A DNA stretch of 64,000 nt from Collimonas sp. PA-H2 (GTDB lineage: Bacteria; Pseudomonadota; Gammaproteobacteria; Burkholderiales; Burkholderiaceae_D), in assembly GCF_002564105.1 (NCBI RefSeq), contig NZ_PDBX01000001.1:4154001-4218000 (forward strand), read 5' to 3'. Below, in pieces: positions 39,794 to 60,972 of this stretch (position 1 is its first letter; each line of letters opens with the position of its first letter). The notes beneath the pieces are model-generated. The model was not told the DNA's origin. It made no database searches and saw nothing but the letters and a program-made list of their open reading frames with translations. The position numbers and the translations under genes were made by a program.

Positions 39794-41288
<1,495 letters not shown>

Positions 41289-41289
<1 letters not shown>

Positions 41290-42197: not shown

Positions 42198-42198
42198 G

Positions 42199-43080: not shown

Positions 43081-43112
43081 GAGGGTTTTTCTAAAAATCA
43101 GCCACAAAATCA

Positions 43113-43178
43113 GTTAAGTGGGGTCAGAGTTTTTTTACGACAGTTTTATCGTCGTAAATTACTCTGACCCCACTTAAC
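43113..43178. repeat. REP-like palindrome, GGGGTCAGAGT type
   Basis: GTTAAGTGGGGTCAGAGT (43113-43130) is perfectly inverted at 43161-43178, and inside it TTTACGAC pairs with GTCGTAAA. The arrangement and the GGGGTCAGAGT core resemble repetitive extragenic palindromes associated with REP-associated tyrosine transposases. It lies 33 bp upstream of the livH start. Confidence 0.8.
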
Positions 43179-43232
43179 GGGCTACGGAGTACAGTTCTCC
43201 GTGGTTGGTGCAGTATTCTTTCTCCGGGCGCC

Positions 43233-43295
43233 GTCAATAGGGGACAGAGTAGTTCGTCGCGCTGCGGCGACTCACAAACTCTGTCCCCTATTGAC
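43233..43295. repeat. REP-like palindrome, GGGGACAGAGT type
   Basis: GTCAATAGGGGACAGAGT (43233-43250) is perfectly inverted at 43278-43295. An inner stem TCGTCGC/GCGGCGA adds pairing. It begins 4 bp after the stop codon of the livJ-type gene. It differs from the neighbouring palindrome at the outer arms but shares the GGGGWCAGAGT core. Confidence 0.8.
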
Positions 43296-43299
43296 TACG

Positions 43300-44815: not shown

Positions 44816-46210
44816 TCAGCCTAACTGCTGGCGCAAATGCTGGATCGCCAGGCGCACCTGGCGCGGCGCGGTGCCGCCTATATGGTCGCGCGCGGCGACC
44901 GAACCTTCCAGCGTCAGCACCTGGAAAATGTCGTCTTCGATCAAAGGCGAGAAAGCGCGCAGCTGTTCCAGCGACAGATCGCTCAGGTCGCAGCCCTGGT
45001 CGACGCAGCTGCGCACGGCATGCGCCACGGCTTCGTGGGCGTCGCGGAAAGGCAGGCCCTTCTTGACCAGGTAGTCGGCCAGGTCGGTGGCGGTGGCGTA
45101 GCCTTGCAGGGCGGCGGCGCGCATCGCTTCCGGCTTGACCGTGATGCCGCGCGCCATGTCGGCGAAGATGCGCAGCGTATCGGTGATCGTGTCGACGGTG
45201 TCGAACAGCGGTTCCTTGTCTTCCTGGTTATCCTTGTTGTAGGCCAGCGGCTGGCCCTTCATCAGGGTCAGCAAGGCAATCAGATGGCCGTTGACTCTGC
45301 CGGTCTTGCCGCGCGCCAGTTCCGGCACGTCGGGATTTTTCTTTTGCGGCATGATCGAGGAGCCGGTGCAGAAGCGGTCAGCGATATCGATGAAGCCGAT
45401 GCGCGGGCTCATCCAGATCACCAGTTCTTCCGACATGCGCGAGACGTGGGTCATCACCAGCGCCGCTGCGGCGCAGAATTCGATGGCGAAGTCGCGGTCC
45501 GAGACGGCATCCAGCGAATTGCGGCAGACGTCGTCGAAACCCAGTGTTTTCGCTACGCGTTCACGATCGATAGGGAAAGTGGTGCCGGCCAGGGCGGCGG
45601 CGCCCAGCGGCAGGCGGTTGACGCGCTTGCGGCAATCCTGCATGCGCTCGGCGTCGCGGCCGAACATTTCGACGTAGGCCAGCACGTGATGGCCGAAAGT
45701 GATCGGTTGCGCCACCTGCATATGGGTGAAGCCGGGCAGGATGGTGTCGGCGTGCTGTTCCGCCAAGTCCAGCAGCGCCAGGCGCAGTTCGCGCAGCAGG
45801 CCGCTGATGTCGTCGATGGCGCCGCGCAGGTAGAGGCGGATGTCGGTGGCGACCTGGTCGTTGCGCGAACGGCCGGTATGCAAGCGTTTGCCGGCATCGC
45901 CGACCAGTTCGGTCAGGCGCTTCTCGATGTTGAGATGGACGTCTTCCAGGTCCAGCAGCCATTCGAACTTGCCGCTCGCGATTTCGCCCTGGATCTGGGT
46001 CATGCCTTTCTGGATCGAGGCGTAATCGTCGGCGCTGATGATCTTTTGATATGCCAGCATCTCGGCATGTGCCAGCGAGCCCTGGATATCGACCTCGGCC
46101 AGGCGCTTGTCGAAAAATACCGACGCCGTGTAACGTTTGACCAGATCAGAGACCGGTTCGGAGAAACGAGCCGACCAAGCTTCGCCTTTTTTGGAGAGTT
46201 GTGCTGTCAT
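44816..46210 (-). CDS. argH: Argininosuccinate lyase
   Basis: A 464-residue fumarase/aspartase-superfamily enzyme. The signature [20 protein letters not shown] is intact, as are [16 protein letters not shown] and [18 protein letters not shown]. It cleaves argininosuccinate to arginine and fumarate, the last step of arginine synthesis. ATG 46210 is the standard family start ([19 protein letters not shown]); 19 upstream residues were rejected. It is divergent from the algZ-like gene. Confidence 0.96.
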
Positions 46211-46407
46211 AATTGAGGTTTGAATCGCGCGTGAGAGTAAGAAGTGAAGTAAGCAGTGAGCAGGCAAGGAATTATGCGATTATAAATCACTACCCTCGCA
46301 CTGCCCCCGAAAACCGGCTGCGCCTGCTTGATACAGGCATTTTACCCTGCGATATAGGCCTCATAACCAAGCTATGATTGTTTTTATGTTAACCGATACC
46401 AGCGCCT

Positions 46408-47511
46408 ATGCTTTCTGATCAGACCGTCGATAGTTCGCTGGCGCAGCAACCCGGCGCACTGGTGATTCCCGACGGCTGCAACCTGGGCGTGGTGTTTCGC
46501 GCGCTGATCGCGGTGAACCTGGCCGTCATGGCGGCGGTCCTGCTGCGCAGCGACGGACTGATTGCGGCGATCAACAGTTTTGTCGAATCGGCAATGCTGG
46601 TCGAGCCGGCCTGTTTCCTGTCGCTGTCGGTATTGTGTGGTTTGCATCGGATTGCCCACCATTTTTCTTTTGTAGTGCAGCGGATCTTGTGCGCGCTGGC
46701 GCCGGCGCTGGTGACGATGGCGGTGATCTGGCTGCTGTCGGGCTTCGACTGGTTCCTGAACGGTTTTTCCCATCTCAACGCCGCCGGCGGCGTCTTGCGC
46801 GCGGCGCTGGTGGCGGCCTTGTTCGGCATCGGCCTGCAGCATTATTTCGAATTGCGTGCGCGCGCCTTTTCACCGGTGCTGGTGGAGGCACGCCTGCAAG
46901 CCTTGCAGGCGCGGATCCGGCCGCATTTCCTGTTCAACAGCCTCAACGCGGTGTTGTCGCTGATCCGCAGCGAGCCGCGCCGGGCCGAGGCGGCGCTGGA
47001 AGACCTGGCCGACCTGATCCGCGTGCTGATGCGCGACGGCCGCGCCATGACCACGCTGGAAAAGGAAATCCGCCTGTGCCGCCAATATCTGTCGATAGAA
47101 AAAATACGCCTGGGCGATCGCCTGCGGGTGCAATGGGAACGCGAAGGCATCAGCGACGAGGTGGTGTACCGGGCGCAGATCCCGACTCTGCTGTTGCAGC
47201 CGCTGATAGAAAATGCGGTCCATTACGGCGTCGAGCCGAGCACCGAACCGGCCCTGATCCACATCAAGCTCAGCCATTCGCTGGAGCGGATCGAGATCGT
47301 CATCACCAATCCCTACAATCCGTATAGCGGCAAGGGCGTCGCCGCGCTGCCGGAGGGTAACCAGATGGCGCTGGAAAATATCCGCGAGCGGCTGGCGCTG
47401 CTGTACGACGTCGAGGCGCAGCTGACCACCAGCACCACGCTGGGGCAGTTTCAGGTGCGCGCCAGCTTCCCGTATGTGAAAGCGGCTCTGGCCAAAGCGC
47501 CCACGGGCTGA
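46408..47511 (+). CDS. Sensor histidine kinase, AlgZ/LytS type
   Basis: A 367-residue membrane histidine kinase. Four hydrophobic segments lie in residues 25-145. The His_kinase domain has His173 in RIRPHFLFNSLNAVLSLI, followed by QYLSIEKIRLGDRL and the ATP-binding PTLLLQPLIENAVHYGV. It would phosphorylate the LytTR regulator encoded 118 bp downstream. The argH-algZ-algR order is usual in betaproteobacteria. The signal is unknown. Confidence 0.9.
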   Translation: MLSDQTVDSSLAQQPGALVIPDGCNLGVVFRALIAVNLAVMAAVLLRSDGLIAAINSFVESAMLVEPACFLSLSVLCGLHRIAHHFSFVVQRILCALAPALVTMAVIWLLSGFDWFLNGFSHLNAAGGVLRAALVAALFGIGLQHYFELRARAFSPVLVEARLQALQARIRPHFLFNSLNAVLSLIRSEPRRAEAALEDLADLIRVLMRDGRAMTTLEKEIRLCRQYLSIEKIRLGDRLRVQWEREGISDEVVYRAQIPTLLLQPLIENAVHYGVEPSTEPALIHIKLSHSLERIEIVITNPYNPYSGKGVAALPEGNQMALENIRERLALLYDVEAQLTTSTTLGQFQVRASFPYVKAALAKAPTG

Positions 47512-47523
47512 GAAAAATCCACA

Positions 47524-47576
47524 TCCACGAAAGACACGGACAAAAATTTTTTCGTGGCTTTCGTGTTTTTCGTGGA
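47524..47576. repeat. Imperfect palindrome with CACGAAA repeats
   Basis: TCCACGAAAGACACGGAC (from 47524) is imperfectly inverted as CGTGTTTTTCGTGGA (ending 47576), with an A/T-rich centre. It sits between the kinase and regulator genes. The motif resembles a TCCACGAAAnACACGAA repeat found dispersed in many proteobacterial genomes. Confidence 0.6.
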
Positions 47577-47629
47577 CAATGTTTTCTTGTGAAAACATCT
47601 GCCCCATCCGTTAATCATAATAATCCGTC

Positions 47630-48430
47630 ATGATCCCTCGTATTTTCATTGTCGACGACGAAGCGCCCGCGCGCGCCAGGTTGAGCACGCTGCTGTCCGA
47701 TATCGTCGCCGATTGTCCGCATTACCTGGTCGGCGAAGCCGCCCATGCGCAAGCTGCATTGGAAGGGATTGCCGCCACCGCGCCGGATCTGGTGCTGCTG
47801 GATGTGCAGATGCCCGGCATGAGCGGCCTGCAGCTGGCCGAGCAGTTGGCGAGCAAGGCGGATGCAGCCAAGGCCGAGGCGCCCCTGATCATCTTCGTGA
47901 CCGCCTATGATGACTACGCCTTGAATGCATTCGAGGTGCAAGCCTTCGACTATCTGGTCAAGCCGGTGCGCGCTGCACGGCTGGCGCAGGCCATCGCGCG
48001 CGCCAGCCGCCTGCGCCAGCCGCCGCAGCCGGCCGCAGCGAGCGGCGCAGAAGCAACAGCGGCATTGCCGCGCCAGCATTTCGCGGTGCAGGAGCGCGGC
48101 CGCATGTCGCTGGTACCGATGGGCGAGGTGCTGTATCTGAAGGCGGAGCTGAAGTACGTCACGCTGCGCACCAAGAGCAAGGAATACCTGATCGAAGATT
48201 CACTGGTGTCCATCGAAGAAGAACTGGCGGCGCACTTTGTGCGGGTGCATCGCAACGCGCTGGTGGCGCGCAACGCCATCATCGGCGTCGAACGCGGCAT
48301 CCACATGCCGGACGGCGAGGGCGATGCCGACAAACCGCAGGAAGTCTGGCAAGTCATTTTGCGCGATATCGATCACCGCTTGCCGATTTCAAGACGGCAA
48401 TGGGCGGTGATAAAGGCGCTTGTCCGCTAG
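47630..48430 (+). CDS. LytTR-family response regulator (AlgR type)
   Basis: A 266-residue regulator. The receiver has IFIVDDEAPARARL, phosphoacceptor Asp58 in VLLDVQMPGMSG, and Lys111 in FDYLVKPV. The LytTR DNA-binding domain (about 150-266) has VLYLKAELKYVTLRT and HFVRVHRNALVARNAI. It should act with the AlgZ-like kinase encoded upstream. In related genomes hemC often follows; here the next gene is the unrelated LuxR regulator on the other strand. Confidence 0.91.
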   Translation: MIPRIFIVDDEAPARARLSTLLSDIVADCPHYLVGEAAHAQAALEGIAATAPDLVLLDVQMPGMSGLQLAEQLASKADAAKAEAPLIIFVTAYDDYALNAFEVQAFDYLVKPVRAARLAQAIARASRLRQPPQPAAASGAEATAALPRQHFAVQERGRMSLVPMGEVLYLKAELKYVTLRTKSKEYLIEDSLVSIEEELAAHFVRVHRNALVARNAIIGVERGIHMPDGEGDADKPQEVWQVILRDIDHRLPISRRQWAVIKALVR

Positions 48431-48437
48431 CTTGCCG

Positions 48438-49418
48438 CTACTGCAGGGTGTGGCCGGTGTCGTATTGCCTGTTGATAGCCAGTGCCGCAGCGGCGGCCCG
48501 CGTTTCTACTCCCAGTTTCACGTAGATGTGTTCCAGATGTTTATTCACGGTGCGCGGACTCATGCCCAGAATTTCGGCAATGTCGCGATTGGTCTTGCCT
48601 TTGGAGACCCAGGCCAGGACGTCGGTTTCACGCGGCGTCAGGCGATAAGCCTCTAACTGCAATGCAGTCGGCAGGCTGAACGATTTTTCCTCCATCAGCA
48701 ACGTCAATTCGGAACTCTGGGTATTCTGGGACAGATTGATGATGAGCTCGCCATCGTCGCCGGCAATCACCAAGGCCTGCGGTATCTGCTTTGTCTGGCG
48801 TAGCAACACCAGGTTCTGATTCAGCCAGAAATGCAATTGCTGCGGCAATTTAAGACTTTGAGGGGCGCTTCGCGGAAAATATTTTTCCAGCCAGAACGAC
48901 GCTTTGCCGGTCTGCCACAATGGCTTGCCATCGGTCCCGAGCACGATAACGGCGTGTGCTGCGGCGTCGATCACGTCCCTGGCCTGCGACATCATGCGCG
49001 CTGTCCTGATATGTGCGGCGACGCGCGCCACTATTTCTTGCGGGCGGATCGGCTTGGTCACATAGTCTATGCCGCCGACCTGAAAGCCTTTTACCACGTG
49101 CTCGGTTTCGCTCAGGCCGGTCATGAACACCACCGGCACCTGGCTGGCGCTATCCAGCAATTTGATACGGCGGCAAGTTTCAAAGCCATCGAGGCCTGGC
49201 ATCACCGCATCCAGCAGGATCAGATCGGGCGTAATGAAGGCCAGTCTTTCCAGCGCGCTGGCGCCGTCGGTCGCTACCAGCACGATATGGCCGCTCTCGT
49301 CCAGCGCGTCCGACAGCAGCGCCAGATTATCCGGGATGTCATCCACAATCAGCACCACCGGACGTGCCGTAAGCGGCCGTTGATGCTGGTTGGATGCGTG
49401 ATTGAGATTGTCGTCCAA
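48438..49418 (-). CDS. LuxR/NarL-family response regulator of the amide island
   Basis: A 326-residue regulator with an N-terminal receiver (VVLIVDDIPDNLALL, phosphoacceptor Asp70 in LILLDAVMPGLDG, Lys122 in YVTKPIRPQ) and a C-terminal LuxR helix-turn-helix (260-315, LTPRETDVLAWVSKGKTNRDIAEILGMSP). Between them (145-245) is a domain that looks PAS-like: DVIDAAAHAVIVLGTDGKPLW. It lies 26 bp after the transporter-kinase fusion on the same strand and is its likely partner. Candidate targets are the two TACGTC-N4-GACGTA dyads at 52.9-53.1 kb. Confidence 0.9.
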   Translation of the reverse strand: MDDNLNHASNQHQRPLTARPVVLIVDDIPDNLALLSDALDESGHIVLVATDGASALERLAFITPDLILLDAVMPGLDGFETCRRIKLLDSASQVPVVFMTGLSETEHVVKGFQVGGIDYVTKPIRPQEIVARVAAHIRTARMMSQARDVIDAAAHAVIVLGTDGKPLWQTGKASFWLEKYFPRSAPQSLKLPQQLHFWLNQNLVLLRQTKQIPQALVIAGDDGELIINLSQNTQSSELTLLMEEKSFSLPTALQLEAYRLTPRETDVLAWVSKGKTNRDIAEILGMSPRTVNKHLEHIYVKLGVETRAAAAALAINRQYDTGHTLQ

Positions 49419-49444: not shown

Positions 49445-52400
49445 TTAAAGACTGCCGGCTTTTTGTTTGAGAGGCGCTTGCTCGAGGTCATCGCGGATCA
49501 AGCCATGAATGCGTGCGGTGAAATCGTTCAGGCGGAAGCGCTTTACCAGTTCACGCATTTCGCTGGTGAACGGCTGGTAGACCTGATCTTGCTGCTCGAT
49601 TTCATCCAGTTTGCCGAGAATGCCCTTGACGTAACCGATAGCAGCCAGTTCGACCAGCGCCTGCAGTTTTTCTCTGGAAGGAATGACCAGCATGGTGCTG
49701 GAGACGGGGGCTGGAGCGGCGGGCTTGAGCGCAGGATCGGAAATCCAGTCTACTTTCAGATGCAGCTTGATTTTCGATAGCAAGTCGTTGAACGATACCG
49801 GCTTGACCACAAAATCGTTATAGCTGAGCGGATCGATCTGTTCCGGCGTGCTCTCGAACGCATTGGCGGAAACGATGATGATCGGCAGCGTCGCATGTCC
49901 TTGGGCGCGTATTGCACGGCAGACAGCGCCGCCGTCCATGGCCGGCATGGCGATATCCAGCAGTACCAGATCGGGTACGGAGCGGGCGATTTCTGCCAGG
50001 CAGGCGGCGCCGCTGGCGACCTCGGTCATCGCGAATCCTAGCGGCGCCAGCATGGCGCTCAGTACGGCACGCTGGGACGGCTGGTCGTCCACTACCAGCA
50101 CCCGCTTGCGCGGCCCGAGATAGCCGGACATCTGGTCCTCCAGCTTGATGCGACGGCGTGGCGAGCGCACCTCGGAAAGATAGATCTTCAATTGAAATGT
50201 ACTACCGCGGCCGATGCTGCTTTGGACTGACAGTTCACCGCCCATAATGTGCGTCAGCATGCTGCTGATAGCCAGCCCGAGCCCGGTGCCGATGTCTTCG
50301 CGCAGATTGGCGGCGCTGCTGCGCTCGAACGGCAAGAATACGCGGGCGATGTCTTCTTCAGCAATGCCGATGCCGCTATCCTCGATCTCGAAATAAGTGA
50401 TCTCGCGCGCGTGGCGCACGCGAAAAATCACGTTGCCGGCATCGGTGAATTTGACCGCATTGCCGAGCAGGTTGATCAATATCTGGCGCAGCCGCTTCTG
50501 GTCGACCTGGACCACCTCAGGAATCCGGCCGATTTTCTCAAAGCGGAATGCCAGGCCCTTCTGCTCTGCCTGGGGGCTGAACATCTGCACGATCTGCTCG
50601 AGAAATTCGTTGAGCGCTAGCTCGTCTGATGCCAGCCGCATCTTGCCGGCCTCGATCTTGGCGATATCCAGCAAACCGTCGATCAGGCTCAGCAAATGCT
50701 CGCCGCTGCGGCGGATGACGCCGATTGCATCCCGCCGTCCTTCCGGAATCGCGTGGTCTACCTGCAGGATCTGGGCGTAGCCGAGAATGCTGTTAAGCGG
50801 CGTGCGCAACTCGTGGCTCATGCCTGTGACGAAGCGACTCTTGGCAAGATTGGCGGCCTCCGCGGCTTCCTTGGCGCGCTGCAGGGCGGCATCGGTCTGG
50901 TTATGGGCGTCGATTTCCTGCAATAGCAGGTTGGTTTGCCGTTCCGATTCCTCGTGGGCGACGCTGCGGCTTTCATTGGTCAATACCAGCCACCATGAAC
51001 CGACCCCGATCAATACTAGCAAGGAGGCAAACAATTTGACGAAGACCGTCAGCATCGAATCCGGCGAGCCGGGCACGCTGACTGCCTGTTGGTAATACAG
51101 CAGCCACAAGACCACTGCCAGTCCGCCCGACAAGAGACTGAAGACGATCAGGTAGTGGCCGATGCGGGTATTCAGTTTGAGCGTGAAACGCTCGGGCAGG
51201 AAGCCGCGCAAGGTCTGGAAGATCTGGTCGGGCATGCGCGACGATTCCTTGCAGCGGTCGTTGCAGCGCGCATCCAGCGAGCAGCATAGCGAACAGATAG
51301 CGCCTTGATATGCCGGGCAGTGCGCCATGTCCGGCGTCTCGAAAGTGTTTTCACAGATGACGCATTCCAGTTGGCCGCGGTGGGTGTCGGCCAACTGGTC
51401 GTGGCGGGCGATGTAGTATTTTCCTTTAGTCAGATAGGCGATCAAGGGGGCAATCAGCATCGCGCTGCCCAGCGCGATGAATGGCGCCATTGCATGCGCT
51501 AGCTGGCCGAATGCGCCGAACAAAGCAATTGCGGAAAAGATCGAAGCGATCGCCATGGCGCCGACGCCGACCGGATTGATGTCATACAGGTGCGCGCGCT
51601 TGAATTCGATATGTGGAGGGCTAAGGCCCAGCGGCTTGTTGATCACCAGGTCGGAAACTACCGCGCCGATCCAGGAAATGGCGACCAGCGCATATAAGGC
51701 CAGCACATGTTCGAGAGCCTTGAAGACACCGATTTCCATCAGCAGCAAAGCGATCAGCACGTTGAAGACCAGCCATACCACGCGCCCCGGATGGCTGTGC
51801 GTGAGGCGGGCGAAAAAATTGGACCAGGCCAGTGAACCGGCATAGGCGTTGGTGACATTGATCTTGATCTGCGACACCACCACCAGCAGCGTAGCTGCTG
51901 CCAGCACCCAGGCCGGATCGGAGAATACATAGCGATAGGCGATCAGGAACATTTGCGTTGGCTCGACCGCCTTTTCCATCGGCACTTCGTGCTGGATCGC
52001 CAAAAAAGCCAGCAAGGCGCCGCCTATCATTTTTGCGGCGCCAATCAGAATCCAGCCGGGTCCGGCCAGCAGCAAAGCGCTCCACCAGCGGATACGGTTG
52101 GCCGCTGTCTTTTCCGGCAAGAAGCGTAAGAAGTCGACTTGTTCGCCGATCTGGGCAATCAATGAAAAAGCCACCGTCGCCGCCGAACCGAACAGCAGCA
52201 GGCTGAAGGTATTGCCGTTCTCGGCTTTGCCGGCGAAGGTCATCAGGTTGGCGAGTGCATCCGGCTCCTTGTGCAACACACAGATATAGGGCAGCGCCAG
52301 CAATATCAGCCACAGCGGCTGGGTCCACATCTGCAGGCGGTTGATCAGGGTAATGCCATAGGTCACCAGCGGGATGATCACCAGCGCGCAGATGATATAG

Positions 52401-52861
52401 CCCAGTTCCAGCCGCAGGCCGAAATACAGCTGGATGGCTTGCGCCATGATGGATGCTTCAAGCGCAAAAAAAATGAAAGTGAACGAGGCGTAGATAAGCG
52501 ATGTGATGGTCGACCCGATATAGCCGAACCCGGCGCCGCGTGTTAGCAAATCCATATCTACGCCATATTTCGCGGCGTAGTAACTGATCGGCAATCCTGT
52601 CAGGAAAAACAATATGCTGACGCAGACAATTGCCCAGAAGGCATTGGTGAAACCGTAGTTGAGCGTAATTGTGCCGCTGATGGCTTCCAGCGCGAGGAAC
52701 GAGACTGCGCCGAGAGCGGTGTTGGCCAGCCGGAATTCCGACCACTTGCGAAATGACAGCGGCGTAAATCGCAATGCGTAGTCTTCCAGCGTCTCGTTGC
52801 CGACCCAGGTGTTGTAGTCGCGGCGAACCTTGACGATACGTTGCGTGGCGGAAATTTTCAC
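49445..52861 (-). CDS. NCS1-type transporter fused to hybrid histidine kinase
   Basis: A 1138-residue multidomain protein. Residues 1-485 are an NCS1-family permease (purine/cytosine/allantoin type): NTWVGNETLEDYALRFTP, RGAGFGYIGSTITSLIYASF and NVTNAYAGSLAWSNFFARL, with about 12 membrane segments. Residues 500-537 hold eight cysteines (CVIC, then C515, CSLCC, C533, C537). Two more membrane segments (about 570-590 and 605-627) precede HisKA (His683 in MSHELRTP), the ATPase domain (Asn801, DSGIGI, GTGLGLA), a receiver (Asp969, Lys1020) and an 80-residue helical tail. It starts at GTG with a weak ribosome site. It probably senses a transported or bound small nitrogen compound and controls the divergent urt/amide operon with the neighbouring LuxR regulator. 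Confidence 0.9.
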   Translation of the reverse strand: MKISATQRIVKVRRDYNTWVGNETLEDYALRFTPLSFRKWSEFRLANTALGAVSFLALEAISGTITLNYGFTNAFWAIVCVSILFFLTGLPISYYAAKYGVDMDLLTRGAGFGYIGSTITSLIYASFTFIFFALEASIMAQAIQLYFGLRLELGYIICALVIIPLVTYGITLINRLQMWTQPLWLILLALPYICVLHKEPDALANLMTFAGKAENGNTFSLLLFGSAATVAFSLIAQIGEQVDFLRFLPEKTAANRIRWWSALLLAGPGWILIGAAKMIGGALLAFLAIQHEVPMEKAVEPTQMFLIAYRYVFSDPAWVLAAATLLVVVSQIKINVTNAYAGSLAWSNFFARLTHSHPGRVVWLVFNVLIALLLMEIGVFKALEHVLALYALVAISWIGAVVSDLVINKPLGLSPPHIEFKRAHLYDINPVGVGAMAIASIFSAIALFGAFGQLAHAMAPFIALGSAMLIAPLIAYLTKGKYYIARHDQLADTHRGQLECVICENTFETPDMAHCPAYQGAICSLCCSLDARCNDRCKESSRMPDQIFQTLRGFLPERFTLKLNTRIGHYLIVFSLLSGGLAVVLWLLYYQQAVSVPGSPDSMLTVFVKLFASLLVLIGVGSWWLVLTNESRSVAHEESERQTNLLLQEIDAHNQTDAALQRAKEAAEAANLAKSRFVTGMSHELRTPLNSILGYAQILQVDHAIPEGRRDAIGVIRRSGEHLLSLIDGLLDIAKIEAGKMRLASDELALNEFLEQIVQMFSPQAEQKGLAFRFEKIGRIPEVVQVDQKRLRQILINLLGNAVKFTDAGNVIFRVRHAREITYFEIEDSGIGIAEEDIARVFLPFERSSAANLREDIGTGLGLAISSMLTHIMGGELSVQSSIGRGSTFQLKIYLSEVRSPRRRIKLEDQMSGYLGPRKRVLVVDDQPSQRAVLSAMLAPLGFAMTEVASGAACLAEIARSVPDLVLLDIAMPAMDGGAVCRAIRAQGHATLPIIIVSANAFESTPEQIDPLSYNDFVVKPVSFNDLLSKIKLHLKVDWISDPALKPAAPAPVSSTMLVIPSREKLQALVELAAIGYVKGILGKLDEIEQQDQVYQPFTSEMRELVKRFRLNDFTARIHGLIRDDLEQAPLKQKAGSL
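51251..51364 (-). other. Eight-cysteine cluster linking permease and kinase
   Basis: Residues 500-537 of the fusion have cysteines at 500, 503, 515, 523, 526, 527, 533 and 537 (CxxC-x11-C-x7-CxxCC-x5-C-x3-C) with a His at 514. This looks like a double zinc-binding or redox/Fe-S module between transporter and kinase. Confidence 0.6.
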
Positions 52862-52935: not shown

Positions 52936-52951
52936 TACGTCATTTGACGTA
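52936..52951. promoter_or_regulatory. Dyad TACGTC-N4-GACGTA, copy 1
   Basis: TACGTCATTTGACGTA. It has the same half-sites as copy 2 at 53132. It lies 75 bp before the kinase start and 342 bp before urtA. Candidate binding site for the LuxR-type regulator. Confidence 0.65.
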
Positions 52952-53131: not shown

Positions 53132-53147
53132 TACGTCAAACGACGTA
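53132..53147. promoter_or_regulatory. Dyad TACGTC-N4-GACGTA, copy 2
   Basis: TACGTCAAACGACGTA. It has identical half-sites to copy 1 and a different 4-bp centre. It is 146 bp upstream of urtA and 196 bp (centre to centre) from copy 1. Confidence 0.65.
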
Positions 53148-53292: not shown

Positions 53293-54546
53293 ATGTCGCA
53301 TCGTTCTTCATCCGATATCTCGTCGTCCCAGCGCCGCAAAGTGTTGCTGGGCCTGGCAGTCAGCGCCGCGATGGCAATCCCGGCACTGGCTTTCGCGCAG
53401 TCGCCGGCCACGGCAAAAATCAATACCACCAAGCTGGCGATAACCGATACCGAAGTAACCGTCGGCCAGTTGCATTCGGCTACCGGCACCATGGCGATCA
53501 GCGAGACCGGCTCTATCCAGGCAGAACGGCTGGCGATCGACCAGATCAATGCGATGGGCGGCATCCTGGGGCGCAAGATCAAGATCATCCAGGAAGACGG
53601 CGCCAGCGACTGGCCGACATTTGCAGAAAAAGCCAAGAAGCTGCTGGAGAGCGATCATGTCGCCGCGGTGTTCGGCTGCTGGACTTCGGCTTCGCGCAAA
53701 GCGGTGCTGCCGGTATTCGAAAAAGACAACGGCTTGCTGTACTACCCGACTTTTTATGAAGGCCTGGAGCAATCCAAGAATGTTTTCTACACCGGCCAGG
53801 AAGCCACCCAGCAAGTACTGGCGGGGCTCAACTGGGTCGCCAAGGAAAAGAAAGCCAAGACATTCTTTCTGGTCGGATCGGATTACATCTGGCCGCGCAC
53901 CTCCAACAAGATCGCCCGCAAGCACATTGAAAATGTCCTGAAGGGCTCGGTGGTCGGCGAAGAATATTACCCGCTCGGGAATACCCAGTTCGGTTCGCTG
54001 ATCAACAAGATCAAACTGAAAAAGCCTGATGTGATTTTTGCCGACGTCGTCGGCGGCAGCAATGTCGCATTCTACAAGCAGCTCAAGGCTGCGGGGGTGA
54101 CGGCCAAGACCCAGAACCTGCTGACGATCTCGGTAACGGAAGACGAGATGCTCGGGATCGGCGGTGAAAACGTCGAAGGCTTCTACGCTTCGATGAAATA
54201 TTTCCAGAGCCTGGACAATCCGAACAACAAGAAATTCGTGGCCGAATTCAAAGCCAAGTTCGGCGCCAATTCGGTCATCGGCGATGTCACCCAGGCCGCT
54301 TACCTGGGGCCATGGCTGTGGAAGGCAGCGGTGGAAAAGGCCGGTAGTTTCGATGTCGACAAGGTGGTCGCGGCGTCGCCGGGACTGGAGCTGAAAACCG
54401 CGCCTGAAGGCTATGTGAAGGTACATGCCAATCATCATCTGTGGAGCAAGACCCGGATTGGCGAAGCGCAGAAGGATGGCCAGTTCAAGGTGATCTACGA
54501 ATCGGATCTGATCGAGCCGAATCCTTTCCCCAAAGGTTATCAATAA
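53293..54546 (+). CDS. urtA: Urea/short-chain amide ABC transporter substrate-binding protein
   Basis: A 417-residue periplasmic binding protein of the UrtA/FmdD family. A twin-arginine-like leader (SQRRKVLLGLAVSAAMAIPA) is followed by VTVGQLHSATGTMAISETGS and AVFGCWTSASRKAVLPVFE, then LLYYPTFYEGLEQSKNVFYTG, all typical. ATG 53293 follows AAGGAGTACTGC. It is the first gene of the amide operon. Family members bind urea, and in Methylophilus the FmdD homologue serves formamide and acetamide; the amidases downstream favour amides. Confidence 0.93.
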   Translation: MSHRSSSDISSSQRRKVLLGLAVSAAMAIPALAFAQSPATAKINTTKLAITDTEVTVGQLHSATGTMAISETGSIQAERLAIDQINAMGGILGRKIKIIQEDGASDWPTFAEKAKKLLESDHVAAVFGCWTSASRKAVLPVFEKDNGLLYYPTFYEGLEQSKNVFYTGQEATQQVLAGLNWVAKEKKAKTFFLVGSDYIWPRTSNKIARKHIENVLKGSVVGEEYYPLGNTQFGSLINKIKLKKPDVIFADVVGGSNVAFYKQLKAAGVTAKTQNLLTISVTEDEMLGIGGENVEGFYASMKYFQSLDNPNNKKFVAEFKAKFGANSVIGDVTQAAYLGPWLWKAAVEKAGSFDVDKVVAASPGLELKTAPEGYVKVHANHHLWSKTRIGEAQKDGQFKVIYESDLIEPNPFPKGYQ

Positions 54547-54626: not shown

Positions 54627-55544
54627 GTGGTTTCACTCTCCGAATTCGGCGCCATTTTCGCCATGCAGGGTTTCAACGGCCTGTCTGTATTTTGCGTCCT
54701 GCTGCTGATGGCGCTCGGACTTGCCATCATTTTTGGCCAGATGGGCGTGATCAATATGGCGCATGGCGAATTTCTCACCATCGGCGCCTACATTACCTAC
54801 CTGCTGTCCAAGCTGACCACCTTGTATGCGCCTAGCCTGCAGCCTTACTATTTCTTTGCCGCGATTGCGCTGTCTTTCATCACCGCCTACATCGTCGGCT
54901 ATATCACGGAGTGGCTGATGATCAGCCGCCTGTACAAGCGGCCGTTGGACACGCTGCTGGCGACCTGGGGTTTGAGTCTGGCAATGCAGCAGACCTTCCG
55001 CTCGATTTTCGGCGCCAAGGAGGTCAGCGCTACATTGCCGGACTGGCTGATGGGATCGTTCAAGCCGACCGAGAACATCGACATACCCATCAACGGCTTG
55101 TTCATGATGGGTTTGACTGCGGTGCTGACCGGGGTGATTTTCCTGTTGCTGTTTCGCTCGCGCTGGGGTCTGCAAGTGCGCGCCACCATGCAGAACCGTC
55201 TGATGAGCGGCGCAGTCGGCATCAATACCCGCAAGGTAGACCGCAGCACCTTCGCGCTCGGCTGCGGTGTCGCCGGGATTGCCGGCGCGGCGTTCACCAC
55301 CATCGGTTCCACCGGTCCGACCAGCGGTTCGCTGTACATCGTCGACACCTTCCTGGTAGTGGTGTTCGGCGGTGCGCAAAGTCTGCTGGGCACGATTGCC
55401 TCGGCCTTCTCGATCGCGCAGACACAGTCGACGGCGGAATTTTTCCTGACCGGGTCAATGGCCAAAGTACTGACACTGTCGGCCGTGATCCTGATTTTGC
55501 TGTTGCGGCCGCAAGGCTTGTTTGCCGCAAAAATCCGTAAATGA
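54627..55544 (+). CDS. urtB: Urea/amide ABC transporter permease UrtB
   Basis: A 305-residue LivH-type permease. LLLMALGLAIIFGQMGVINMAHGEFLTIGAY is the family start; RATMQNRLMSGAVGINTRKVDRSTFALG is the ATPase-coupling loop, and GAQSLLGTIASAFSIAQTQSTAEF is UrtB-like. Translation starts at GTG 54627 with AAGGAGTCACC upstream. The stop overlaps the urtC start by 4 bp (ATGA). Confidence 0.93.
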   Translation: MVSLSEFGAIFAMQGFNGLSVFCVLLLMALGLAIIFGQMGVINMAHGEFLTIGAYITYLLSKLTTLYAPSLQPYYFFAAIALSFITAYIVGYITEWLMISRLYKRPLDTLLATWGLSLAMQQTFRSIFGAKEVSATLPDWLMGSFKPTENIDIPINGLFMMGLTAVLTGVIFLLLFRSRWGLQVRATMQNRLMSGAVGINTRKVDRSTFALGCGVAGIAGAAFTTIGSTGPTSGSLYIVDTFLVVVFGGAQSLLGTIASAFSIAQTQSTAEFFLTGSMAKVLTLSAVILILLLRPQGLFAAKIRK

Positions 55545-56782
55545 ACCTAATCGATGCACTCGAAAGGCGCTCCATGATTGCTGCATACGAAAAAATATTA
55601 GGTGGAAAGTCCGGAATGCTCGGCTTGTTGATTCTGGCGAGCTTGTTGCTGGTGGTATTCCCGCTGGCGTTCGATATTTTTCGGCTGAACCTGGTCGGAA
55701 AATATCTCGCCTATGCTTTTGTCGCCGTCGGCCTGGTGCTGTGCTGGGGCTATGGCGGCATCCTCAGCCTCGGACAGGGCGTGTTTTTCGGGCTGGGCGG
55801 CTATTGCATGGCGATGTTTCTGAAACTGGAAGCCTCGGATCCGCTCAGCACCAAGATCCAGTCAACTCCTGGCATTCCGGATTTCATGGATTGGAACCAG
55901 ATCACGCAACTGCCATTGCTGTGGCAGCCGTTTCATTCGTTCGGCTTTACCCTGCTGGCGGTGCTGTTGTTGCCGGCTCTGCTGGCGCTGGTGATCGGCG
56001 CGGCAATGTTCAAGCGGCGCGTCGGCGATGTCTATTTCTCGATAGTCACCCAGGCCATCGCCGCCATCCTGTCGATCCTGATTATCGGCCAGCAGGGACT
56101 GACCGGCGGCGTCAACGGCATTACCGATCTGAAGACCTTGATGGGATGGGATATCCGCACCGACTCGGCCAAGCTGATTTTGTATTTCGTGAATGCCGGG
56201 CTGTTGATCTTGTGCATCCTGATCGGCCGCTTCATCCTCAGCTCCAAACTGGGGCGCTTGCTGGTCGCCATGCGCGACAAGGAAGAGCGGGTGCGCTTTT
56301 CCGGCTACGACGTCGCCAGCTTCAAGGTGTTCGTGTTTTGTGTCGCGGCGATGTTCTCGGCCATCGGCGGCGCCATGTTTACCTTGCAGGTCGGCTTCAT
56401 GTCGCCATCGTTCGTCGGCATCGTGCCTTCCATCGAAATGGTGATCTATGCAGCGGTCGGCGGCCGCATGTCATTGCTTGGTGCGGTGTACGGCACCTTG
56501 CTGGTGAACTTCGGCAAGACCTATTTTTCAGAAGCATTTCCTGAACTGTGGCTGTTCCTGATGGGCGGCTTGTTTATCGCCGTCGTCATGTATTTCCCTA
56601 ATGGCCTGGCGGGCCTTTATCAAAGCCATGGCAGGGCGTTGCTGGCAAGCCTGACCGGATGGCTGCGGCGGCCGGCGAAGAAAACAGCGCCTGCGGCGGT
56701 CGTGTCCAGACTGCCCTCGGAAAAACCTGAGAAGGACGCCAAGCTTGAGCATGGCCACGGCAATCTGGAGGCATCCCAATGA
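55541..56782 (+). CDS. urtC: Urea/amide ABC transporter permease UrtC
   Basis: A 413-residue LivM-type permease. GLVLCWGYGGILSLGQGVFFGLGGYCMAMFLKLE and LTGGVNGITDLKTLMGWDI are UrtC features, and AMRDKEERVRFSGYDVASFKVFVF is the coupling loop. A hydrophilic tail of about 45 residues ends the protein. It overlaps urtB and urtD by 4 bp each. Confidence 0.94.
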   Translation: MNLIDALERRSMIAAYEKILGGKSGMLGLLILASLLLVVFPLAFDIFRLNLVGKYLAYAFVAVGLVLCWGYGGILSLGQGVFFGLGGYCMAMFLKLEASDPLSTKIQSTPGIPDFMDWNQITQLPLLWQPFHSFGFTLLAVLLLPALLALVIGAAMFKRRVGDVYFSIVTQAIAAILSILIIGQQGLTGGVNGITDLKTLMGWDIRTDSAKLILYFVNAGLLILCILIGRFILSSKLGRLLVAMRDKEERVRFSGYDVASFKVFVFCVAAMFSAIGGAMFTLQVGFMSPSFVGIVPSIEMVIYAAVGGRMSLLGAVYGTLLVNFGKTYFSEAFPELWLFLMGGLFIAVVMYFPNGLAGLYQSHGRALLASLTGWLRRPAKKTAPAAVVSRLPSEKPEKDAKLEHGHGNLEASQ

Positions 56783-57546
56783 GCGGTAATCCTATCGGTT
56801 TCGCATCAAACGACCGTCCGGTGCTGGCGATTGAGGGCTTGACTGTTTCCTTCGACGGTTTCAAGGCGGTCGACGATTTGAATTTATATGTGGAACGAAA
56901 TGAAGTCCGGGTGGTGATCGGGCCTAATGGCGCCGGCAAGACTACCGTTTTGGACCTGATCTGCGGCAAGACGCAGGCGACCGCCGGCAGCATCCAGTTC
57001 AACAGTCGCGAACTGACCAAGATGCGCGAACACGAAATTGTCCAGGCCGGGGTGGGGCGTAAATTCCAGACGCCATCCATTTATGAAAACCTGAGCGTGT
57101 TCGAGAATCTGGAGATGTCGTTTCCGCGCGGCCGCAAAGTGTTCGGCGCCCTGATGTTCAAGCGCACCGCAGATGTGGTGGAGCGGGTCGAGGCGGTTGC
57201 CGGGGAAATTTTCCTGGAACAGCAACTTTACCAGCAAGCAGATCTGCTGTCGCACGGGCAAAAGCAATGGCTGGAGATAGGCATGTTGCTGATGCAGGAT
57301 CCGGAATTGCTGATGCTGGATGAACCGGTGGCGGGGATGAGTGTTTCCGAGCGCGAAAAGACCGCCGAACTGCTGGGGCGTATCAGCAAGGGCCGTTCGG
57401 TGGTAGTGATTGAGCATGACATGGAGTTCGTCAAAAGCATTGCGCACAAGGTGACCGTGCTGCATCAGGGAAAAATCCTGGCCGAGGGCAGCATGGAGTC
57501 AGTGCAGGCCAATCCTAAAGTGATTGAAGTGTATTTAGGCCATTAG
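56779..57546 (+). CDS. urtD: Urea/amide ABC transporter ATP-binding protein UrtD
   Basis: A 255-residue ATPase of the LivG/UrtD branch: GPNGAGKTT, VGRKFQTPSIYENLSVFENLEMS, the UrtD-type signature LLSHGQKQWLEIGMLLMQDP, and LLMLDEPVAGMS. The last codons (LGH, stop) are repeated downstream out of the gene in a 13-bp tandem repeat. Confidence 0.94.
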   Translation: MSGNPIGFASNDRPVLAIEGLTVSFDGFKAVDDLNLYVERNEVRVVIGPNGAGKTTVLDLICGKTQATAGSIQFNSRELTKMREHEIVQAGVGRKFQTPSIYENLSVFENLEMSFPRGRKVFGALMFKRTADVVERVEAVAGEIFLEQQLYQQADLLSHGQKQWLEIGMLLMQDPELLMLDEPVAGMSVSEREKTAELLGRISKGRSVVVIEHDMEFVKSIAHKVTVLHQGKILAEGSMESVQANPKVIEVYLGH

Positions 57547-57595: not shown

Positions 57596-58285
57596 ATGTT
57601 CAATGTTTCACATCTCGCCTCTGGCTATGGCCAGAGCCAAGTCATCCACGATATCAACCTCTCGGCGGCCAAGCAGGAGATCGTTGCCGTCATGGGCCGC
57701 AACGGCATGGGAAAGACCACCTTGTTTAAAACGCTGATGGGAATTCTGCCGATGCGCGAAGGCAGCATTCAGATCGAGGGCCAGGAGCTGGGCAATCTGG
57801 AAAGTTATCAGCGGGTGGAGCACGGGGTTGCCTATGTGCCGCAGGGCCGCATGATTTTTCCTGGCATGACCGTACTTGAAAACATCCAGACCGGTTTGCC
57901 GGCGAGTGCGCTTGGCAAGGTGTCGGATGAGCTGTATGCCTTGTTTCCGGTGCTGTATGACATGCGCAGCCGTAAAGGCGGCAACCTGTCGGGCGGCCAG
58001 CAACAGCAGCTAGCCATTGCGCGCGCGCTGGCGACCAATCCCAAGGTACTGCTGCTGGACGAACCGACCGAGGGCATCCAGCCCTCGATCATCAAGGATA
58101 TAGCGCGCAGCCTGAAAGAGATCCGCAAGATACGCGCGCTGACCATCATCGTCTCGGAGCAGGTGCTGAGCTTTACGCTGGAAATCGCCGACCGCTTTCT
58201 GGTGATCGACAAGGGCCGTTTTGTCTACGAAGACACGCGCGACAACGTCGATGCGGCAACCATCAGCCGCTATTTATCGGTATAG
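57596..58285 (+). CDS. urtE: Urea/amide ABC transporter ATP-binding protein UrtE
   Basis: A 229-residue ATPase of the LivF/UrtE branch: GRNGMGKTT, VAYVPQGRMIFPGMTVLENIQTG, signature NLSGGQQQQLAIARAL and VLLLDEPTEGIQPSI. GTGGAGTCCTT is the ribosome site. It completes the five-gene transporter and is followed, 55 bp on, by the amidase gene. Confidence 0.94.
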   Translation: MFNVSHLASGYGQSQVIHDINLSAAKQEIVAVMGRNGMGKTTLFKTLMGILPMREGSIQIEGQELGNLESYQRVEHGVAYVPQGRMIFPGMTVLENIQTGLPASALGKVSDELYALFPVLYDMRSRKGGNLSGGQQQQLAIARALATNPKVLLLDEPTEGIQPSIIKDIARSLKEIRKIRALTIIVSEQVLSFTLEIADRFLVIDKGRFVYEDTRDNVDAATISRYLSV

Positions 58286-58340: not shown

Positions 58341-59363
58341 ATGAGACATGGAGATATTTCCAGCAGCAAGGATGCGGTAGGGGTGGCGGTCGTCAACTAC
58401 AAGATGCCGCGCTTGCACACCAGGGCAGAGGTATTGGACAACGTCCGCAATATCGCCGCGATGGTGGTGGGCATGAAGCAGGGTCTGCCAGGATTGGACC
58501 TGGTCATTTTCCCGGAGTATTCAACGCATGGGATCATGTATGACTCTGCTGAAATGTTCGACACTGCCGCAGTGATCCCGGGCGAAGAAACTGCCCTGTT
58601 CGCCGCGGCCTGCCGTCAAGCCAATGTCTGGGGCGTATTCTCGCTGACCGGAGAACGGCATGAAGAGCATCCGCACAAGGTGCCTTACAACACGTTGATC
58701 CTGATGAACAATCATGGCGAAATTGTCCAGAAGTATCGCAAGATCATGCCGTGGACACCAATCGAAGGCTGGTACCCGGGCGACACAACGTATGTGTCGG
58801 AGGGGCCCAAGGGCATGAAGATCAGCCTGATCATCTGCGATGACGGCAACTACCCGGAGATCTGGCGCGACTGTGCGATGAAGGGGGCCGAACTGATCGT
58901 GCGCTGCCAGGGCTATATGTATCCCGCCAAGGATCAGCAAGTGCTGGTGTCGAAAGCGATGGCCTGGATGAATAACGTCTACGTGGCGGTGGCCAATGCG
59001 GCGGGCTTCGACGGTGTCTATTCGTACTTCGGCCACTCTGCCATCATCGGCTTCGACGGCCGCACCCTGGGCGAGTGTGAAACCGAAGAAATGGGTATCC
59101 AGTATGCCGAGTTGTCGGTCAATCTGATCCGTGACGCGCGCCGCAACTGGCAGTCGCAAAATCATCTCTACAAGCTCTTGCATCGCGGCTATACCGGCAA
59201 GATCAATTCCGGCGAGGCTGCCGCAGGAGTTGCGGAATGTCCCTTCGATTTTTACAAGACCTGGGTCAATGATCCGCAGCAGGCGCGGCGACAGGTCGAA
59301 GCCTTGACCCGTTCTGCACCCGGCACGCCGGAATGTCCAATGCCAGGCATTCCTTCTGAATGA
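58341..59363 (+). CDS. amiE: Aliphatic amidase
   Basis: A 340-residue nitrilase-superfamily enzyme. [20 protein letters not shown] and the whole core match AmiE of Pseudomonas. The triad is Glu59 (IFPEYS), Lys134 (KYRKIMPW) and Cys166 (LIICDDGN), at the same positions as in that enzyme. It hydrolyses short amides such as acetamide and propionamide to the acid plus ammonia in the cytoplasm. A formamide-specific AmiF variant is possible, but the MRHGDISSS start points to AmiE. AGGAGTGATAC precedes the ATG. Confidence 0.95.
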
Positions 59364-59416: not shown

Positions 59417-60595
59417 ATGCAACATTTCAAGATCAAACCTGGCGTGCCCCTGGCGCTGCAAGCCGAACTGGGACATAACCGCTGGCATCCCGACCTGCCG
59501 TTCCTGTCATCGGTCAAGCCGGGGGAGTCGATTCTGATCGAATCGCTGGATTTCCTGGATGCCCAGATCCAGGATAACGATGATGTTTCCGATGTCAGGA
59601 ATGTCGACCTGACTCGTGCCCATCCACTGACCGGCCCCTTTCATGTAGAAGGAGCAGAACCCGGCGATCTGCTGGTGATCGACTTGCTCGACATTCAGCC
59701 GGTGACGCCGGTCGGATTTTCCGGCGTGTTTTCAAAAGAGAACGGCGGCGGCTTCCTGGCGGATACGTTTCCCGATGCCGACAAGGCGATCTGGGATCTG
59801 AAAGGTTTGTACGCCACGTCGCGCCATATTCCAGGCGTACGGATAGCCGGCCTGACCCATCCCGGCCTGATGGGCTGCCTGCCATCGCATGATCTGCTGG
59901 CCGAGTGGAACCGGCGCGAAGCGCCGCTGGCGGCCAAGGGATTGGCCAAGCCACCGGATCCGAGCACGGCGGTACTGCGTGGCTTGAGCGGCGCCAAGTT
60001 TGACAGCATGGCGAAGGAAGCCGCGCGTACCGTGCCGCCACGCGAACATGGCGGTAATACGGACATCAAGGATCTGTCGGCCGGCACGCGGATTTTCTTC
60101 CCGGTGTATGTCAAGGGCGCTGGCTTTTCCATGGGCGATTTGCACTTTTCGCAAGGCGATGGCGAAATCGGCTTTTGCGGTGCGATCGAAATGGATGGCG
60201 TCAGCCATGTCGGCTTCGACCTGATCAAGGGCGGCATGGCGAAATACAACATCACCTCGCCGATCTTCATGCCCAGCATCGTTAAACCGCACTATGAACA
60301 GTGGCTGACTTTCGAGGGGATCAGCGTCGAGAATGGCGTCAACTATTATCTCGACGCCACTGTCGCTTATCGCCAGGCTTGCCTCAAGGCTATCGATTAC
60401 CTGACGCACTTCGGCTATACCGGCAGCCAGGCCTACATGCTGCTGACCGCGGCGCCGGTAGAGGGCCGGATCGGTGGAATTGTCGATATTCCGAATTGCG
60501 CATGCACGGTGTCTTTGCCGACCTCGATCTTCGATCAGGATATTACGCCGAAAGGCATGTTGAACGATAACGCTTATTGGGGGCGCAAGCCCTGA
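59417..60595 (+). CDS. fmdA: Formamidase (FmdA/AmdA family)
   Basis: A 392-residue FmdA_AmdA-family enzyme: GHNRWHPDLPF, the HPLTGPFHVEGAEPGDLLVIDLLDI region, GGNTDIKDLSAGTRIFFPVYV and SMGDLHFSQGDGEI are hallmarks. It hydrolyses formamide, releasing ammonia; it is unrelated in fold to AmiE. A GAGAGGAG ribosome site is present. Together with the amidase, the operon covers C1 and C2-C3 amides. Confidence 0.93.
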   Translation: MQHFKIKPGVPLALQAELGHNRWHPDLPFLSSVKPGESILIESLDFLDAQIQDNDDVSDVRNVDLTRAHPLTGPFHVEGAEPGDLLVIDLLDIQPVTPVGFSGVFSKENGGGFLADTFPDADKAIWDLKGLYATSRHIPGVRIAGLTHPGLMGCLPSHDLLAEWNRREAPLAAKGLAKPPDPSTAVLRGLSGAKFDSMAKEAARTVPPREHGGNTDIKDLSAGTRIFFPVYVKGAGFSMGDLHFSQGDGEIGFCGAIEMDGVSHVGFDLIKGGMAKYNITSPIFMPSIVKPHYEQWLTFEGISVENGVNYYLDATVAYRQACLKAIDYLTHFGYTGSQAYMLLTAAPVEGRIGGIVDIPNCACTVSLPTSIFDQDITPKGMLNDNAYWGRKP

Positions 60596-60675: not shown

Positions 60676-60972
60676 ATGCCACTGTATGACATACGCTGCA
60701 GCCATTGCGATGGCATCTTTGAAAGACTGTTGCCGCTGCAGGCGCTAGAGAGTCCGGTTGCTTGTCCGTATTGCGCCTGCGACACGCCTGCCTCACCGAT
60801 GTTTACGGGCGGCCATGTCAAGCTGCGTGTGACGGAAAGCTGGCGCGCGCGTAACGGCGCCGAGCAACTGGCCGGACGGGGAGCCGCCGGGCCGGGAACC
60901 CATACGGGCGCCGGCAGGAGCAGCGTGCTGCACAATTGCAAAGGCCACAGCTGCAGTATTTGCGATACCTGA
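60676..60972 (+). CDS. fmdB: FmdB-family zinc ribbon protein
   Basis: A 98-residue protein starting MPLYDIRCSHCDGIFE with two CxxC pairs (CSHC, CPYC) that form the FmdB zinc ribbon. The C-terminus has further cysteines and histidines (HNCKGHSCSICDT) not usual for the minimal family. FmdB was first noted as a putative regulator beside the Methylophilus formamidase gene. Here it is the last gene of the operon and ends 6 bp from the convergent DUF1501 gene. Confidence 0.88.
   Translation: MPLYDIRCSHCDGIFERLLPLQALESPVACPYCACDTPASPMFTGGHVKLRVTESWRARNGAEQLAGRGAAGPGTHTGAGRSSVLHNCKGHSCSICDT

Follow-up and report, generated by a model that had tools for sequence, protein, structure and literature searches.

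A LeuT/NCS1-fold permease fused to a hybrid histidine kinase as a candidate urea/amide sensor beside the urt-amiE-fmdA cluster of Collimonas sp. PA-H2

What does a bacterium sense with a protein that joins a membrane permease to a histidine kinase, and which genes does that protein serve? The question is raised by a locus of Collimonas sp. PA-H2 (assembly GCF_002564105.1), which we studied within a window of 64,000 nucleotides (contig NZ_PDBX01000001.1, positions 4,154,001 to 4,218,000; coordinates below are those of the window). Here, a minus-strand frame at 49445..52861, with a GTG start at 52861, encodes a fusion of 1138 amino acids (aa) between an NCS1-fold permease and a hybrid histidine kinase. 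A first-pass annotation had described this single frame and proposed that it senses amides or nitrogen and controls a divergent urea/amide operon; the frame is as described, on the minus strand. We consider it probable that the fusion and its partner regulator form a dedicated two-component system of the transceptor type for urea or short aliphatic amides, controlling urtABCDE-amiE-fmdA. Architecture, fold, gene linkage, and operator distribution were computed; from these, we infer the nature of the ligand, the direction in which the system responds, the path of the phosphoryl group, the identity of the operator-binding protein, and ligand binding that need not involve transport.

The kinase half of the protein is conventional. 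Pfam matches well over their cut-offs place HisKA at residues 673-739 (50645..50845), HATPase_c at residues 787-894 (50180..50503), and a receiver (Response_reg) at residues 921-1032 (49766..50101), as the first-pass annotation had recognized. The phospho-accepting residues, H683 of HisKA and D969 of the receiver, are kept in 260/260 aligned near-full-length rows, window protein included (translated loci of about 1080-1200 aa or database proteins of >1100 aa only), so the histidine, the ATPase domain, and the receiver aspartate of a hybrid histidine kinase are all present. Upstream lie the permease domain (residues about 20-486; 51404..52804), an eight-cysteine module (residues 500-537; 51251..51364), and two long predicted helices that link the module to the kinase (residues about 566-640; 50942..51166; helices predicted at 566-595 and 600-659). 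The C-terminal helical tail (residues 1040-1138; 49448..49744) showed no conserved histidine in the same 260 rows and is therefore not an ordinary Hpt domain, a function that we rejected for it. Residues 1-640 were matched by at least 8000 candidates. Among the best 120 matches listed (window protein included), HisKA and HATPase were present in all 120 and a receiver in 118, and the 118 relatives with all three kinase domains rule out a chance or frameshift artifact. The nearest named relatives among the matches listed were from Glaciimonas and Herbaspirillum.

To see which genes accompany the fusion, we surveyed its neighborhoods. In the window, UrtABCDE, AmiE, and FmdA are encoded divergently from the kinase gene, and all seven are over their NCBIfam cut-offs. 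In a sample of 397 genomes of the phylum, 65 (the host among them) had strong matches, at 71 places in total. Once the own window and G091 (the same as L027, beside urease genes) were set aside, along with 17 weak matches (≤111.2 bits), 69 evenly drawn loci remained, and at 65 of them genes for Urt, urease, formamidase, or amidase lay no more than about 10 kb away (urt plus amide genes, 38; urt, 12; urt plus urease, 8; urease, 5; amide, 2; none, 4). In a best-match set, such neighbors were present at 68 of 80 loci, 13 of which had urease genes without urt; this 80-locus survey ignored UrtD/UrtE matches of <42% identity, and the locus surveys ignored regulator matches of <200 aa. The expectation for a random locus is <2% by our own estimate from about four such operons in 5 Mb and a 20-kb span, rather than from a control set. 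Annotated plasmid loci, hand-picked for variety, had such neighbors in five of six cases: urt genes in Klebsiella, Chelatococcus, Rhizobium, and Sinorhizobium, and fmdA plus amiE in Methylovirgula. None of urt, urease, fmdA, and amiE was seen near the Azospirillum lipoferum plasmid locus. The survey of homologues that the first-pass annotation had called for thus came out in its favor, and the factor common to these contexts would be urea or a near relative.

The second line of evidence is a palindrome. Palindrome search located two predicted operators in the kinase-urtA intergenic region: TACGTCATTTGACGTA (52936..52951), the nearer to the kinase gene, and TACGTCAAACGACGTA (53132..53147), the nearer to urtA; both are perfect TACGTC-N4-GACGTA palindromes. 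No other perfect copy occurs in the 5.95-Mb host genome, a distribution that looks like a one-locus regulon, and four sites in total have at most one mismatch (the genome-wide table has an entry per strand for every palindromic site; for the control, the reversed pattern, it shows 20 per strand). Across 163 relative loci, we found 65 sites with at most one mismatch in 115,547 bp upstream of kinase/permease genes, compared with 24 in 2,936,797 bp elsewhere. Of these 24, 22 lie 63-195 bp before the start of a match to fmdA (14), urtA (6), amiE (1), or urtC (1), so that 87 of the 89 near-perfect sites are upstream of kinase/permease genes, urt, fmdA, or amiE. A genome-wide count in 16 other genomes gave 20 perfect sites, 17 of them at this locus (16 at the kinase intergenic region and 1 at fmdA) and 3 unplaced. 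Palindromes of a related kind, built from TACGCAA-type half-sites, occur in other branches. The 7-2-7 geometry of inverted heptamers is that of NarL-family regulators. A promoter scan of the kinase-urtA intergenic region found no sigma-70-like promoter. The two window sites point to control of the kinase gene as well as the urt genes, and gene linkage together with operators here and before urt, fmdA, and amiE in relatives supports the control of the divergent operon that had been proposed.

The putative regulator is encoded next to the kinase gene. The next gene downstream, on the same strand after a 26-bp gap (48438..49418, minus strand), encodes a predicted partner response regulator of 326 aa that has a receiver and a LuxR/GerE helix-turn-helix DNA-binding domain by Pfam, i.e., the NarL/LuxR type. 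On the plus strand, NCBIfam identifies urtA (substrate-binding protein; 53293..54546, with the start picked by its ribosome-binding site in a longest frame from 53224), urtB and urtC (ABC permeases; 54627..55544 and 55541..56782), urtD and urtE (ABC ATPases; 56779..57546 and 57596..58285), the aliphatic amidase gene amiE (58341..59363), and the formamidase gene fmdA (59417..60595). A 98-aa FmdB-like zinc-ribbon protein follows (60676..60972, plus strand), with a PF09723 match of 29.9 bits that is under the curated cut-off of 34.4.

To place the permease, we compared it with known transporter families. No PF02133 match to the window protein was reported at a maximum E value of 10 (HMMER filters drop most matches above ∼0.1), and profile-profile comparison with NCS1 gave a probability of 99.5 and an E value of 1.4e-22 over 413 columns. 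A kinase-less relative (L022) that is 46% identical passes the PF02133 cut-off (31.8 versus 23.5 bits), so homology to NCS1 extends over most of the length. The predicted structure has the LeuT fold and is nearest to CodB and Mhp1; the best Foldseek matches were LeuT-type, and VIA-align comparison covered the top chains from Foldseek. Sequence searches of the PDB gave no matches with the permease profile and spurious ones only with two relatives. SLC5 transporters have the LeuT fold as well. A kinship with SLC5 and CbrA was rejected, as there was no SSF Pfam match and a control, single-sequence hhalign to the one SSF protein of the host, gave a probability of 0.1; the distinction from SLC5-based CbrA made earlier is thereby upheld. 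An Amt domain had no Pfam match in the window protein. By these comparisons, the permease belongs to a divergent family related to NCS1, rather than to NCS1 in the classical sense. The complete NCS1-type permease that the first-pass annotation saw in residues 1-485 is thus confirmed in its full LeuT/NCS1 fold and profile-profile match, and qualified by the missing direct PF02133 match and by the divergence of the family. It had also named absent or degenerate permeases in homologues as evidence against itself. In the homologues found, the permease is full length with invariant pocket residues, although homologue searches cannot show kinases without a permease because the query was the permease part.

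The binding pocket departs from that of classical members. In an alignment of 412 rows (289 fused and 123 kinase-less), the aromatic sandwich pair (CodB W108/F204) is not kept: position 131 is F in 386 rows and L in 26, and 411 rows have I, V, M, L, or A at the TM6 aromatic position, 235. The Na2 side chains (CodB T278/T279) are replaced by K333 (412/412) and I334 (410/412), as mapped by remote alignment. Polar pocket residues E135, Q237, E240, Q241, K333, N335, and N338 are identical in all 412 rows. These differences in the pocket and Na2 residues led us to reject a classical nucleobase NCS1 permease. They also temper the earlier statement that key residues are intact, which holds for H683 and D969 and fails for the aromatic pair of TM3 and TM6 and for Ser/Thr at Na2. 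A lost aromatic sandwich combined with an invariant polar pocket might be what is expected for a small acyclic polar ligand.

Between permease and kinase lies the cysteine module, C-x2-C-x11-C-x7-C-x2-CC-x5-C-x3-C, with cysteines at residues 500, 503, 515, 523, 526, 527, 533, and 537. Six are kept in 289/289 fused rows and the other two in 288/289, which bears out the cysteine cluster noticed at first pass. In kinase-less rows, each of the eight positions is Cys in 121 to 123 of 123; the module is partly lost in L022 and in an Acinetobacter permease. Since it is present in most kinase-less permeases, the module is a feature of the permease, not one of signaling alone. A module search of the 397-genome sample gave 71 confident matches, all in frames of the window-protein family (the remainder had E values of 0.0038 or worse), and we discarded the idea of a widely shared signaling domain. 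Scanning the full-length protein with Pfam gave no match, STAC included, between the permease and HisKA. In CbrA, STAC has been put forward as a coupling element, according to the part of the report available (PMC13022988), and by analogy, the cysteine module may couple permease and kinase here.

In the mechanism we propose, the ligand (urea, formamide, acetamide, or a close relative) would bind to the N-terminal LeuT/NCS1-fold permease domain and change its conformation, and the change would pass through the cytoplasmic eight-cysteine module and the two helices to HisKA. The kinase would then phosphorylate the LuxR-type regulator of the adjacent gene, directly or through its own receiver. The regulator would bind palindromes of the form TACGTCA-nn-TGACGTA, which lie in the kinase-urtA intergenic region and, in relatives, before fmdA and amiE as well, and would activate both uptake (urtABCDE) and hydrolysis (amiE and fmdA).

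Relatives that lack the kinase bear on how far this reading extends. The kinase-less proteins, of about 540-570 aa, end at or near the cysteine module. Among the best 120 of 5927 matches, the named carriers are mainly acidophiles (Acidihalobacter, Acidithiobacillus, Acidiphilium, Acidocella, Leptospirillum, and others), along with Halothiobacillus, Rhodopila, Salinisphaera, and Methylovirgula. A kinase-less permease takes the place of urtABCDE in three related genomes (an Acidihalobacter prosperus record is identical to one of the proteins), in the order kinase gene, operator, permease, fmdA, and amiE. On two Acinetobacter plasmids, such a permease precedes a complete urease operon, although the two genes are hardly independent because they are near-identical. 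The L022 permease adjoins urease genes and that of Methylovirgula adjoins fmdA/amiE; in total, seven of the eight places examined have urease or amidase genes beside the kinase-less permease, and the eighth, L212, shows none. At TM1 position 58, 282 of 289 sensors have L and 122 of 123 kinase-less forms have D; at position 59, E is found in 288 of the sensors and Q in 109 of the kinase-less forms. The two groups also differ at positions 341/345 (A/A versus S/S). These differences could mark the loss or gain of transport coupling. A tree of 74 rows places the kinase-less forms in a single clade (100/98) nested within the fused forms, with a poorly fixed root on long branches. We tentatively propose a new family of Na+-independent urea/short-amide NCS1-fold permeases, whose main form would be a receptor kinase with a one-locus regulon and whose kinase-less branch would be an importer, perhaps derived from the sensor by kinase loss; we hold this wider proposal with noticeably less confidence than the two-component reading.

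Several points weigh against a dedicated urea/amide system. No such neighbors were seen at 4 of the 69 and 12 of the 80 loci, some of them on cut contigs (L159 and L205 of the 4), and the 12 include four of five cyanobacteria and Polyangium. No regulator match of ≥200 aa was found beside the cyanobacterial copies, by a filter that also missed Pseudomonas regulators that are present. The linkage itself suggests common control and does not identify the ligand. An upstream operator with at most one mismatch occurs in 61 of the 163 loci and in none of the other 102, and a de novo search of the urease-linked branch for a common 7-2-7 palindrome gave nothing clear. The 16 other genomes with genome-wide counts of perfect sites were picked for already having a known site. 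As for the pocket, residue mapping onto CodB/Mhp1 depends on a remote profile alignment, and the 412 rows overweight close relatives of two queries.

Other explanations share much of this evidence. The protein could be a true transporter-sensor, in which the kinase responds to ligand import and turnover rather than to binding alone, a mode proposed for CbrA. The complete permease fold and conserved pocket residues would fit, and the kinase-less relatives beside urease/amidase genes look like transporters. However, sensors differ from those relatives at 58-59 and 341/345, which could mean that coupling was lost, and the locus already has an ABC transporter; on balance, we think this unlikely. 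A reading that we find harder still to credit is that nucleobases, allantoin, or general nitrogen status are sensed and the urea/amide operon is controlled incidentally. NCS1 relatives do carry cytosine, hydantoins, and similar compounds, and urt genes are usually under nitrogen control. On the other hand, the two ring-sandwiching aromatics, said to be conserved through NCS1, are replaced, and the recurring neighbors are urea/amide genes (the neighbor search did not cover purine and pyrimidine genes).

The cysteine module, with eight near-invariant cysteines and no confident match outside the family in the 397 genomes, might itself be a metal or redox sensor for which the permease is a membrane scaffold. 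Yet most kinase-less permeases have the module too, and a metal or redox signal would leave the urea/amide linkage unexplained, which makes this idea very improbable. A urea/amide receptor of the transceptor type thus remains our preferred reading.

How does such a receptor compare with known systems? Reports available in part describe Pseudomonas CbrA as an SLC5 transporter, STAC, and a histidine kinase with the partner CbrB, active in nutrient sensing (PMC13022988 and PMC7096432), and as a rare example of a transporter-kinase "transceptor" (PMC13022988). Like the window protein, it joins a transporter and a histidine kinase in one chain, and it has a two-component partner of the kind predicted here. 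The parts of CbrA are SLC5, STAC, and PAS; those of the window protein are an NCS1-related permease, the eight-cysteine module plus two helices, and a receiver, with a LuxR-type partner. CrbS and RpuS, described in partial sources as SLC5/STAC transporter-kinase fusions that regulate the use of acetate or a pyruvate symporter, likewise have another permease family, linker, and substrates. Ks-Amt5 is described, in the text available, as an ammonium transporter turned receptor that binds without transporting and is fused to a kinase (PMC5764959). It resembles the proposed sensor as a transporter-derived receptor joined to a kinase; it is an Amt trimer and not a LeuT fold, has DHp and CA domains only, and, as far as that text goes, has no identified regulator. 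CodB and Mhp1 have no kinase, and their aromatic sandwich and Na2 Ser/Thr are absent from the window-protein family. MetT, an NCS1 metformin transporter, is described in an accessible portion of its report as carrying an acyclic nitrogen-rich molecule (PMC13390362); it is a transporter for which that portion mentions no histidine kinase, and we liken it to the window family by description only. In PMC8905175, a sensor kinase is listed apart from the gene PFLU4512 ("purine-cytosine permease and related proteins"); both enter this comparison by description only.

Gene clusters like that of the window have been described. From the sections available, Pseudomonas veronii, which grows on acetamide and formamide, has a urtABCDE-fmdA-fmdB-amiE cluster that lacks amiC and amiR (PMC13209695), and a similar Bradyrhizobium japonicum cluster is described as an amide rather than a urea system (PMC3098086). 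Both share the enzyme/transporter genes of the window, and the portions available name no transporter-kinase regulator for either. The terms "two-component" and "response regulator" do not occur in the main texts, as far as available, on the P. veronii amide cluster and the Klebsiella urtABC/amiF cluster. The fusion would supply a candidate regulator for urt-fmd-ami clusters for which these partial texts identify none. Among the papers listed in searches of the open-access literature, with subscription journals mostly outside it, we found no description of an NCS1-type transporter-kinase or of a urea-sensing two-component kinase; the first-pass annotation, too, was aware of no characterized example. 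Databases already name relatives "signal transduction histidine kinase/.../purine-cytosine permease-like", so annotation does register the fusion, which, as far as we found, is unstudied. If our reading is right, NCS1-fold permeases join SLC5 and Amt as transporter classes in kinase fusions. Sensors and kinase-less permeases with near-identical pockets would be a natural experiment on the change from transporter to receptor or the reverse, and the family points to a new class of urea/amide permeases and a possible urea or amide biosensor.

The fusion system is not rare and belongs to a large family, kinase-less permeases included. The permease part matched 531 of 72,556 plasmid records, 342 of them from Klebsiella, and a genome-collection scan confirmed at least 575 relatives, the best 80 of which include five cyanobacteria and the myxobacterium Polyangium. 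Members of the fusion family occur in proteobacteria, in cyanobacteria, and on plasmids that are conjugative by prediction. One of the 342 Klebsiella plasmid records was read and has the fused gene with urtABCDE, formamidase, and amidase genes. Some copies vary in form. Those at L183 and L190 (about 870-876 aa, with a HisKA motif and fmdA nearby) are probably too short for a receiver, i.e., non-hybrid. Genome G120 has two fused copies (L029 and L030) whose kinase part is different, with an insert before the kinase and no match to the HisKA motif of our script. In the Sinorhizobium meliloti pSymB record CP140959 (L036), the fused gene is split in two frames and is missing from the gene table, and the locus still has urtABCDE and the response regulator gene. 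The cyanobacterial copies (L055, L058, L062, L063, and L074) are shorter, about 940-1011 aa, and L058 retains urt and amiE neighbors.

Elsewhere, the host genome has one ordinary NCS1 permease and a urease gene, and no second copy of the window permease was found in it. The window holds two unrelated two-component systems side by side, since a LytS-type kinase (PF06580) and LytTR regulator pair (46408-48430, plus strand) is convergent to the LuxR-type regulator gene. Beyond it, an argininosuccinate lyase-like gene (44816-46267, minus strand) follows a Liv-type branched-chain amino acid ABC operon (39794-44457, minus strand), both recognized from their translations alone.

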